Source of the DNA: Lacisediminihabitans changchengi
GTDB lineage: Bacteria; Actinomycetota; Actinomycetes; Actinomycetales; Microbacteriaceae
NCBI RefSeq assembly: GCF_016634425.1
Contig: NZ_JAEPES010000001.1
Coordinates: forward strand, 186,001 to 250,000
Direction: 5' to 3'
Length of the DNA stretch: 64,000 nucleotides
Under the pieces are notes generated by a model. It was not told the origin of the DNA and did not search any database. It worked only from the letters and a program-made list of their open reading frames with translations. The position numbers were made by a program, and so were the translations under genes. Below, in pieces: positions 1,773-62,317 of this stretch. Position 1 is the stretch's first letter. Each line of letters starts with the position of its first letter.

Positions 1773-1880
1773 AGGATGAGTTTCTCACCGACCACCGACA
1801 TTCCGATCGGGCCAATAATGCTGACCAGAGGGTTTTTATAAGTCCAACGAGTGGTGGGCCTGTGGAGGAGAGGAGGCGCC

Positions 1881-1898
1881 CTTCGACGAGCTCAGGGA
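1881..1898. repeat. single half of a CTTCGAC...CTCAGG repeat
   Basis: The string CTTCGACGAGCTCAGGGA matches one arm of the palindromic repeat found inside recG at 60781-60795, with one base changed. It lies in the 160-base gap between the HNH gene and the carbonic anhydrase gene. No matching second arm is visible nearby, so it looks like a decayed or partial copy. Confidence 0.5.
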
Positions 1899-1920
1899 CC
1901 ACACTCGCCACCATCCCGGC

Positions 1921-24633: not shown

Positions 24634-24724
24634 CGCTGGTTGAGTAAGCCCCGACGGAGAAGGAGCCGTATCGAAACTGGGTTTCGATACGCGTGCTCCT
24701 TCGTCGCGCGCTACTCAACCAGCG
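24634..24724. repeat. complete palindromic GGTTGAGTA repeat (about 91 bp)
   Basis: Outer arms CGCTGGTTGAGTA (24634-24646) and TACTCAACCAGCG (24712-24724) are perfect complements. Inside, AAGGAG/CTCCTT and GTATCGAAAC/GTTTCGATAC also pair around a TGG loop, so RNA would form one long hairpin. It lies in the 119-base gap between the dihydropyrimidinase stop and the LLM start, where it could modulate transcript levels. Confidence 0.85.
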
Positions 24725-53406: not shown

Positions 53407-53507
53407 GGTTGAGTAGCGCACGCGCTCTAGCGCGTCCGCGTATCGAAACCTGCCCGGGCCGGGCCTCGATACGCGTCCTCGCGCGGACGCTCGGGCGCTA
53501 CTCGACC
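53407..53507. repeat. complete palindromic GGTTGAGTAGCGC repeat (about 101 bp)
   Basis: GGTTGAGTAGCGC (53407-53419) pairs with GCGCTACTCGACC (53495-53507) with one mismatch; inside, GCGTCCGCG/CGCGGACGC and TATCGA/TCGATA also pair. It fills the gap between the convergent fbiC and cofC genes and extends into cofC, whose last codons and TAG stop (53498-53500) are part of the right arm. Confidence 0.88.
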
Positions 53508-60130: not shown

Positions 60131-62317
60131 TCAGTTCTTCGCCAGGAAGTCGCGGCTGGTCTCGTCGAGCCGCCGCGCCAGCGCATCCCGCAACTCGGTG
60201 TGTTTCGCCAGCGACGGATCCGACGACAGGATGCCCGCGGCCAGCTCCCTCGCGTCGGTGATGAGTTCGCCGTCCCGGGCGACCCGCAACAGCCGCAGCG
60301 ACGATCGGCCGCCGGACTGCGTGCTGCCGAGCACGTCGCCCTCGCGCCGCAGCTCCAGGTCTTTCTGCGCGAGCTCGAACCCGTCAAGGGTGGATGCGAC
60401 GGCCTCGACCCGTTCGCGGGCGAGAGTTCCTTCCTCCGCGCGGGTGACCATGAGACAGAGTCCCGGCACCCCGCCCCGGCCCACGCGGCCACGCAGCTGG
60501 TGCAGCTGAGAGACCCCGAAGCGGTCGGCGTCGAGCACGACCATCGTGGACGCATTGGGCACGTCGACCCCGACCTCGATCACCGTGGTGGCGACCAGCA
60601 CGTCGATCTCGCCGGCGGCGTATGCACGCATCGCCGCGTCTTTCTCCTCGCTCGGCATGCGGCCGGTCAGCGGCTCGATGCGGCGACCGGCGAGAAGTGG
60701 ATGCGCGCGCAGCAGGGCCAGCGTGTCGGTGACGTTGGCAATCACGGTCGCTGAGCCTGTCGAAGCGTCGCCGTCCGGCCCTTCGACAAGCTCAGGGTCC
60801 GAAGTGTCGGCCGGGTCGATTGCCGGGCAGACGACGAACACCTGGTGCCCTTTGGCGAGTTCCTCGGCGGAGCGCTCCCAGACGCGGTTCACCCAGCTCG
60901 GCTTCTCGGCGAGGGGCACGACGAAACTCTGGATCGGCGAGCGCCCCCCGGGCAGCTCTGCGATCGTCGACACGTCGAGGTCGCCGAAGACGGTCATGGC
61001 GACCGTACGCGGGATCGGCGTTGCGGTGAGCACCAGCACGTGCGGTGGAGTCGCCCCTTTGCGGCGGAGCGCCTCGCGCTGCTCCACACCGAAGCGGTGC
61101 TGCTCGTCGACGACCACCAGCCCCAAATCGTAGAAGCCCACCGTGTCGCTCATCAGTGCGTGCGTTCCGACGACGATCTGCGCCTGACCGGTGACCGCCG
61201 CGAGCAGCGCTTTCTTGCGGTCGGCCGTCGCGAGCTGACCCGTGATCAGCGTGGGGCGCAACTGCGCTGCGAGGTCGGGACCGAGCGTCTTCACGATCGA
61301 GCGCAGGTGCTGCCCGGCGAGCACCTCGGTGGGCGCAAGCAACGCGGACTGCCCGCCGGAGTCGGCCACCGCGAGCATCGCCCGCAGCGCGACGAGTGTC
61401 TTGCCGGAGCCGACCTCGCCCTGCACGAGCCGGTTCATCGGGGAGGTCGAGCCGAGGTCATCCGCGATCTCCTCGCCGACCCTGATCTGGTCGCCGGTGC
61501 GGGTGAACGGCAGCCGCGCGTCGAAGCGTTCGAGAAAGCCGCCGGGCTTTGGAACACGGGAGACGGATGTCTGCTGCCGCAGAATCGCGCGCTGCTCGAG
61601 CAACGCGGCCTGCAACACGAACGCCTCTTGGAAGCGCAGCGACTTCTGCGCCGCGCGCCAGTCGATCTCCTTCTGCGGGCGGTGGATCAGTTCGAGCGCG
61701 CGCGAGTACGACATCAGTTTGCGCGCGGTGCGCACCTCGAACGGCACCGGGTCGGGCAGCGGCGGCAGGCCATCGAGCACCACGCCGACGGCGGCGGCGA
61801 TCTGCCAGGACGCGATGGTGCCGGTCGCGGCATAGATCGGGATGGGGAGCTCTGCCCACTGCCGGGCCCGCTCATCCGCCGCGCTCGTGTCGCCGTCATC
61901 CGTGTCGGCCGGGAACAGCTCGTAGTCGGGGTGGGCGAGCTGCGGGGTGCCGCGGTACTCGTTGACCTTGCCGGCGAAGATGCCGCGCGAACCGACGCGC
62001 AGCTCGTTCTTGCGCCAGGCCTGGTTGAAGAAGGTGAGCGTGAGCACATCTGTGCCGTCACTGATCGTCACCTCGAGGATGGAGCCTCGCTTGGCCTGCA
62101 TGGTGCGCTCCCGCACGTCGACGACCTCGGCCACGATCGTGACGCTCTCGTCGATGGAGAGTTGGGCGAGGGCCGTCAGCTCACCGCGCAGTGCATAACG
62201 ACGCGGATAGTGGCTGAGCAGGTCGCCGACGGTGGCCAGCCCGAGGCCCTTCTGCAGCGCGGTCGCGGTGCGGGGACCGACGGAGACGCTGAGCTTGGCG
62301 TCGAGCGGGGAGTCCAC
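60131..62317 (-). CDS. recG: ATP-dependent DNA helicase RecG
   Basis: RecG remodels stalled replication forks and Holliday junctions. The 728-residue protein has an N-terminal OB-fold wedge domain (about 55-170), Walker A QGEVGSGKTLVAL, the DEQH box VVVDEQHRFGVEQREAL, LVLTATPIPRT (motif III), and the C-terminal helicase motifs VEVGVDVPNAS and QLHQLRGRVGRG. Unusually, the segment after CPAID carries an inserted PELVEG-type peptide encoded by a palindromic repeat, in frame and probably as a surface loop. GTG 62317 lies 6 nt after TAGCCT, so a leaderless message is likely. Confidence 0.95.
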   Translation of the reverse strand: MDSPLDAKLSVSVGPRTATALQKGLGLATVGDLLSHYPRRYALRGELTALAQLSIDESVTIVAEVVDVRERTMQAKRGSILEVTISDGTDVLTLTFFNQAWRKNELRVGSRGIFAGKVNEYRGTPQLAHPDYELFPADTDDGDTSAADERARQWAELPIPIYAATGTIASWQIAAAVGVVLDGLPPLPDPVPFEVRTARKLMSYSRALELIHRPQKEIDWRAAQKSLRFQEAFVLQAALLEQRAILRQQTSVSRVPKPGGFLERFDARLPFTRTGDQIRVGEEIADDLGSTSPMNRLVQGEVGSGKTLVALRAMLAVADSGGQSALLAPTEVLAGQHLRSIVKTLGPDLAAQLRPTLITGQLATADRKKALLAAVTGQAQIVVGTHALMSDTVGFYDLGLVVVDEQHRFGVEQREALRRKGATPPHVLVLTATPIPRTVAMTVFGDLDVSTIAELPGGRSPIQSFVVPLAEKPSWVNRVWERSAEELAKGHQVFVVCPAIDPADTSDPELVEGPDGDASTGSATVIANVTDTLALLRAHPLLAGRRIEPLTGRMPSEEKDAAMRAYAAGEIDVLVATTVIEVGVDVPNASTMVVLDADRFGVSQLHQLRGRVGRGGVPGLCLMVTRAEEGTLARERVEAVASTLDGFELAQKDLELRREGDVLGSTQSGGRSSLRLLRVARDGELITDARELAAGILSSDPSLAKHTELRDALARRLDETSRDFLAKN
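60751..60795. repeat. palindromic repeat inserted in frame in recG
   Basis: CTGAGCCTGTCGAAG (60751-60765) and CTTCGACAAGCTCAG (60781-60795) are complementary apart from one base, around a 15-nt loop. On the coding strand it encodes PELVEGPDGDASTGSA, a peptide without counterpart in ordinary RecG. A single arm of the same repeat is at 1881-1898. Confidence 0.85.

Follow-up and report, generated by a model that had tools for sequence, protein, structure and literature searches.

A REPIN-like palindrome read in frame inside recG of Lacisediminihabitans changchengi

Results

In this work we have analysed a stretch of 64,000 nucleotides of the L. changchengi genome (the window), near one end of which lies recG. 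The product of this gene was matched by the NCBIfam RecG models with a best E value of 1.4e-272, yet under their curated score cut-offs, and among its nearest named RecG matches is that of Lacisediminihabitans profunda, whose best segment reaches 78%. The features discussed below are the following.

60131..62317, minus strand: recG, ATP-dependent DNA helicase RecG, 728 amino acids (open reading frame; NCBIfam RecG models; PDB RecG 1gm5, 9wm0)
60745..60801, minus strand: 57-bp inverted dimer (REPIN-like palindrome), encoding about residues 506-525 (SDPELVEGPDGDASTGSATV)
60745..60767, minus strand: repeat unit 1, a unit A with 2 mismatches to CCCTTCGACNNGCTCAGGGACCG
60779..60801, plus strand: repeat unit 2, a unit A with 1 mismatch
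60751..60795, no strand: 45-bp palindrome as first predicted, i.e. the dimer arms with the 15-bp spacer
60752..60805, minus strand: low-confidence loop (pLDDT <50), residues 505-522 (AlphaFold2 model)
1879..1901, plus strand: single copy of unit A, 1 mismatch, not called in-gene
24680..24720, minus strand: copy of unit B (GGTTGAGTAGC...GTATCGAAACC), which represents another repeat family with the same build
53407..53450, plus strand: copy of unit B

The original prediction placed a 45-bp palindrome inside recG, read through in frame, and both its arms and the open reading frame were confirmed: two 15-bp arms with one mismatch enclose a spacer of 15 bp. This palindrome forms the central part of an inverted dimer of 57 bp built from a 23-bp unit, CCCTTCGACNNGCTCAGGGACCG, which we call unit A. 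As single-stranded DNA the dimer folded better than all of its 200 shuffled versions on either strand (z about -4.5); the folding of a single 23-bp unit was no better than that of shuffles. The window holds three copies of unit A at up to three mismatches, compared with 0.01 expected from shuffles, and the copy at 1879-1901, earlier described as a decayed arm at 1881, turned out to be a whole and nearly intact unit. The 15-mer arm occurs nine times in the window at up to three mismatches, where 3.26 were expected and one of 100 shuffles reached nine; this count is weak evidence when taken alone, and it is the genome-wide count that makes the repeat firm.

The exact 15-base arm is present 28 times in the host genome (3.41 Mb, 6 contigs), and its reversed control not once. 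A count over the whole genome, which had been proposed for the palindrome with the original prediction, gave 62 matches of the 23-mer at up to three mismatches (reversed control 0), which form 49 clusters and 47 distinct loci, two clusters having been dropped as a stretch of contig C1 repeated in C3; two of the 62 matches belong to this shared stretch. Identical repeats lie in mirror order and at equal spacing (111,764 bases) in C1:894052-1005887 and C3:328372-440207, indicating a stretch duplicated between contigs, in agreement with the contamination of 11.6% stated for the genome. At C1:1005816-1005887 the units form a tandem array with a 17-base period. Among adjacent pairs less than 100 bp apart in the host genome, eight of 14 are inverted and six direct, and many units are single.

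Could the palindrome be a coincidence of coding in an acidic loop? Native RecG loops do resemble parts of it, for example the PELVEG of G064, which has 6 mismatches in 21, a level that shuffles also reach. However, none of 750 codon-shuffled loops came within five mismatches of unit A, from which the host's own loop differs by one, and the 62 genomic matches stand against none for the control. On the genome counts and the shuffled-loop comparison we rejected a chance palindrome, the probability of which we regard as negligible.

At the level of the family, at least one arm was found in 95 of 299 genomes, some of which have hundreds (583 in G077) and many none. The sampled congeners carry between zero and three arms (three in G004, one in G005, none in G012, G008 and G007). 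Among 198 genomes from the whole phylum, the host included, 14 had a match and the host alone had more than six. Similar dimers lie on plasmids of Sphingobium, Variovorax and Moraxella (nine records at 80-90% identity, three of them inspected) and the exact 23-mer occurs in 10 stretches of viral contigs, so that unit A is not confined to Microbacteriaceae. In one IMG/VR contig filed as viral (L305) the 23-mers follow each other head-to-tail.

Eleven of the 47 distinct loci were found in frame inside recognisable proteins by a codon model together with family searches: an Fpg/Nei-type glycosylase, TreY, RecG, a YeiH-type transporter, an XdhA-like oxidoreductase, IleRS, a DUF3516 helicase, HrpA, PheT, a T2SSF protein and an ABC transporter. 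Two of these are aminoacyl-tRNA synthetases. By itself the codon model, a simple one for which the window served as training set, classed 10 loci out of 47 as read-through and missed PheT. For nine of the eleven proteins a single family match extends across the insertion point; the two others are the glycosylase and the ABC transporter, whose copies are located next to domain matches or between them. The open frame of the XdhA-like protein is located at the edge of its stretch. Loci with an open frame and no family support at the insertion point were excluded from this class (L200, L236, L239, L240 and L244); in L239 a FliP domain begins downstream of the insert. The protein of L244 (C6:182118), for which there was no family match, ends in a C-terminal tail of tandem EPVEGA repeats derived from tandem units. 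About 83% of the window lies in the open frames of the codon model, and the copies are thus rarer in genes than chance placement predicts.

The cleanest in-gene case is PheT, where filled and empty sites contrast within the genus. At the insertion point the host reads GPLRQAQDDASTGSETGRD, whereas six congeners (G008, G005, G012, G007, G009 and G002) have only G and two to three further residues; in G004 and G011 the turn is longer and unrelated. The comparison covered 24 genomes, of which 22 yielded PheT (only part of it in G003) and two, G006 and G010, did not. In pheT of G001 (L278), the turn that holds two units in the host carries a single decayed unit in another frame. Compared with the M. 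tuberculosis-type structure 7k98, the PheT insert is a gap, with 12-15 residues extra in the host, an excess that is also seen relative to the six congeners with a short turn. The TreY insert is likewise a gap against 6lcv (6 residues), HrpA has gaps of 9 and 5 against 9ggr, and the insert of IleRS falls in a poorly aligned stretch of the structure comparison. Four of the six single-unit inserts use the STSSG frame (P 0.017 for five equally likely frames, in a small sample with frames assigned by hand).

In RecG the dimer is read in frame as about 20 residues (about 506-525) in a linker that joins the CPAID-type strand to the helix after it. This linker varies in length and sequence in nearly every RecG that we read and is short in the solved RecG structures. 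The AlphaFold2 model, built from a 31-sequence alignment (mean pLDDT 83.9), places residues 505-522 at pLDDT below 50, between a strand (491-496) and a helix (528-537) of the second helicase domain. The loop modelling suggested with the original prediction thus gave a loop that is predicted to be disordered. It had also been claimed that the palindrome adds a PELVEG-type peptide of about 16 residues. The dimer does encode a peptide, and even a somewhat larger one, yet relatives without it have linkers of similar overall size: the host's length of 49 equals the median of 150 distinct loops (range 33-157), 71 of which are shorter. The simple reading of 16 extra residues was rejected on this ground. 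The dimer may thus not simply have been added to an intact loop, and some native linker residues may have been lost in the host RecG.

To see how this linker looks in relatives we used a RecG set of 171 entries (the host and some genomes are present twice), from which 163 loops were read, 150 of them distinct. Those outside the 163 were L047, L057, L116, L122 and L272-L275, of which L272 and the G001 piece were later read by eye. Genome G244 has, alongside its usual RecG, a second RecG-like protein (G244:C14:13584-15806) that is 45% identical to the query. The 163 loops, together with 750 codon-shuffled ones, were scored against three unit families, namely A, A3 (GGTCGAGCNNGTCGAGACC) and B (GGTTGAGTAGC...GCGTATCGAAACC). 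Unit A was found in the loops of the host (1 mismatch in 21) and G117 (3), no shuffle having fewer than 6. Unit A3 was found in those of G010 (0) and Rhodoglobus RYN_77 (1), no shuffle having fewer than 3. The loops of G230, G274 and G299 contain unit B, free of mismatches at one end or both, and here no shuffle had fewer than 2. For at least one unit pattern, each of these seven loops has a score reached by none of the 750 shuffles. The G311 loop contains three unit-B hairpins. In G001, recG is split between contigs exactly in the linker, and one of the contigs starts with an inverted pair of unit A. A weaker case is G125, with a hairpin of unit-B build and A3-like ends (11 mismatches in 35, best shuffle 16). 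By these comparisons, the RecG linker carries palindromes of the three unit families in seven lineages, or six if the host and G010 share one event, or eight with G125. In G117 both arms bear the same change (GCAGAAG / CTTCTGC) and so remain complementary.

Two loop repeats belong to none of the units A, A3 and B. The Pseudolysinimonas loops L039 and L090 have an inverted repeat with perfect arms of 15 bases, and the loop of G020 (L040) has a longer, imperfect one.

Had distant relatives carried this segment in their RecG, it would have been an old native loop. The 150 distinct loops did not indicate this: unit-A dimers occur in two further lineages (G117 and G001) and other palindromes in four more, among relatives that lack them, and palindromes scattered in this way are not one old native segment of the loop. 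It could still be that a single ancestral palindrome in the linker of Microbacteriaceae was kept or lost by lineage and homogenised to the local repeat types. The inserts share the site and, for A and A3, the frames, and in the tree of the whole gene the host and G010 group together with a support of 0.978. Trees were built from whole RecG without the loop and from its two halves, and the N-terminal half does not support this grouping. Moreover, insert-free neighbours stand in the trees next to G001 (G002), RYN_77 (RYN_65) and G299 (G260); the G001 protein is 93.9/90.6% identical to that of insert-free G002 and 79.8/84.7% to that of the host. Unit B is also unlike A in sequence and length. We therefore consider a common ancestral palindrome unlikely. 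Insert-free close relatives were found for four lineages and not for G117 or genus g13. In g13 the congener G120 probably has an insert too, since part of its loop resembles a decayed unit B (14 mismatches in 35, the best of 750 shuffles having 16). For G117 a single congener was read, G020, which lacks unit A and has the other repeat mentioned above.

Where copies were counted, the family of the palindrome in recG is multi-copy in its own genome (A in the host, A3 in G010, B in G299, G274 and G230). A3 has 181 copies in G010 and none in the host; unit B has 32 in G299, 18 in G274, 16 in G230 and 35 in the host. The repeat lists of G010, G299 and G274 include the recG copy itself. The match between insert and host is partial, since none of the 35 unit-B copies of the host is in recG, G117 has only two exact unit-A arms, and the counts are limited to some pairs of genome and unit. 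The hairpin of unit B has its inner six pairs in Watson-Crick form in 136 of 138 cells (23 distinct copies), with compensatory changes at three positions, and outside these GGTT/AACC followed by a tandem G.A mismatch. By eye, unit A has the same outer four pairs and the same GAG...CGA core. Unit B has GTAG before the covarying stem and, from its sequence, may be a GTAG-type REP family without RAYT.

Discussion

Rickettsia and Wolbachia are the best-known sources of palindromes that encode parts of proteins, and tagged REPs provide further cases in several other phyla. We now find such palindromes in a family of actinobacteria, no RAYT having turned up in the genomes tested for it, and a single genome has them in 11 or more proteins. 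We think it very probable that the recG palindrome is a selfish element of REP/REPIN-like type, inserted in frame in a native, disordered and length-variable linker of RecG, where it is tolerated. According to this proposal, an inverted dimer of the 23-bp unit was inserted in the second helicase domain, between the strand and the helix. Unit A is open in five of its six reading frames, and those used in recG give small polar residues (PELVEG, STGS), so that copies could be tolerated as long as their net length is divisible by three. Copies would land widely and most of those in genes would be lost, while those in polar frames of flexible linkers would persist; the palindrome in RecG would then be kept because it does little harm.

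The original prediction spoke of domestication, whereas the signs that we see are those of tolerance and repeated insertion, not of function. Is it possible that the peptide is selected for a role in RecG, such as tuning of helicase activity or binding of a partner? The insert is intact in frame, and the unit-A (host, G117, G001) and A3 (G010, RYN_77) inserts share the frame pair E[LP].E ... S.[GS]S. However, a tolerance restricted to polar frames would produce this agreement as well, the unit-B inserts of g13 and G299 encode quite different peptides at the same site, with a number that varies between congeners, and the loop is disordered in the model. A selected role is, in our opinion, very unlikely.

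As to the enzyme that would move a tolerated, selfish palindrome of this kind, the RAYT/REP transposase domain (Y1_Tnp, PF01797) was found in none of 19 genomes, the host and 18 others carrying these repeats, by a search that was positive in five of 14 known genomes as a control. Of 60 relatives, three have this domain. A RAYT-borne REP was rejected on this basis, and we hypothesize, from one genome per species, that the repeat spread as mobile or copied DNA by means of a non-RAYT enzyme.

The parallel with Rickettsia, proposed originally for an actinobacterial host, holds in that a dispersed repeat of a member of Microbacteriaceae is read in frame inside recG. The Rickettsia palindromic elements (RPEs) are described as multi-copy palindromes that lie in frame, as non-structured segments, in unrelated housekeeping proteins (PMC3767692, PMC2996958), and as Rickettsia-specific elements of 100-150 bp (PMC3767692). 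Unit A is similarly a multi-copy palindrome in frame inside protein genes; however, it has 23 bp and its dimer 57 bp, its sequence is unrelated as far as compared, and its host is a free-living-type actinobacterium. The GTAG and CGTC REPs described by Di Nocera et al. 2013 (PMC3733652) have palindromic units of 20-40 bp, often in inverted dimers, which are mostly intergenic and sometimes inside ORFs, those of DNA synthesis and repair genes among them. In the same account, the CGTC type is without a dedicated transposase and has a terminal CGTC (or TGTC/CCTC), a stem of 8-9 bp with AT at the first two positions and a CCA-type tail. Unit A, by contrast, reads CGGTCCCTGAGCNNGTCGAAGGG without the CGTC tag or stem, nor does it have the GTAG that the GTAG type carries at one end of the stem. 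The repeated form of a REPIN is an inverted pair of REP units, which unit A may resemble, its adjacent pairs being eight inverted and six direct besides many single units; from REPIN/RAYT systems it differs in the absence of PF01797 from the 19 genomes. RPEs and REPs inside ORFs are closest to it in behaviour.

What has already been reported, in the account of Di Nocera et al., is the presence of REPs in repair genes, with two Xanthomonas whose recB genes contain them at nearly the same position (PMC3733652). Words beginning with "actinobacter" or "recG" are absent from the main text of that paper, and in the open literature we found nothing on the arm sequence, on REPINs or REPs in Microbacteriaceae or on palindromic insertions in RecG that matches this element. 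As far as this search goes, three things are new: the occurrence in a family of actinobacteria, the unit itself, and three unit families in a single linker.

Lastly, it may be that the RecG linker is a true hotspot, in which a RAYT-independent enzyme recognising hairpins with the GAG...CGA core (tandem G.A mismatch) would insert active palindromes more than in other genes, the RecG variants differing accordingly. A rough Poisson estimate puts RecG above the average gene in insertions; it uses assumed gene numbers (12/3000) and is not counted as evidence, and we hold such a hotspot to be rather doubtful. One linker repeatedly struck in related genera nevertheless provides a natural series for following palindrome movement, the frames that are tolerated and any effects on the helicase.
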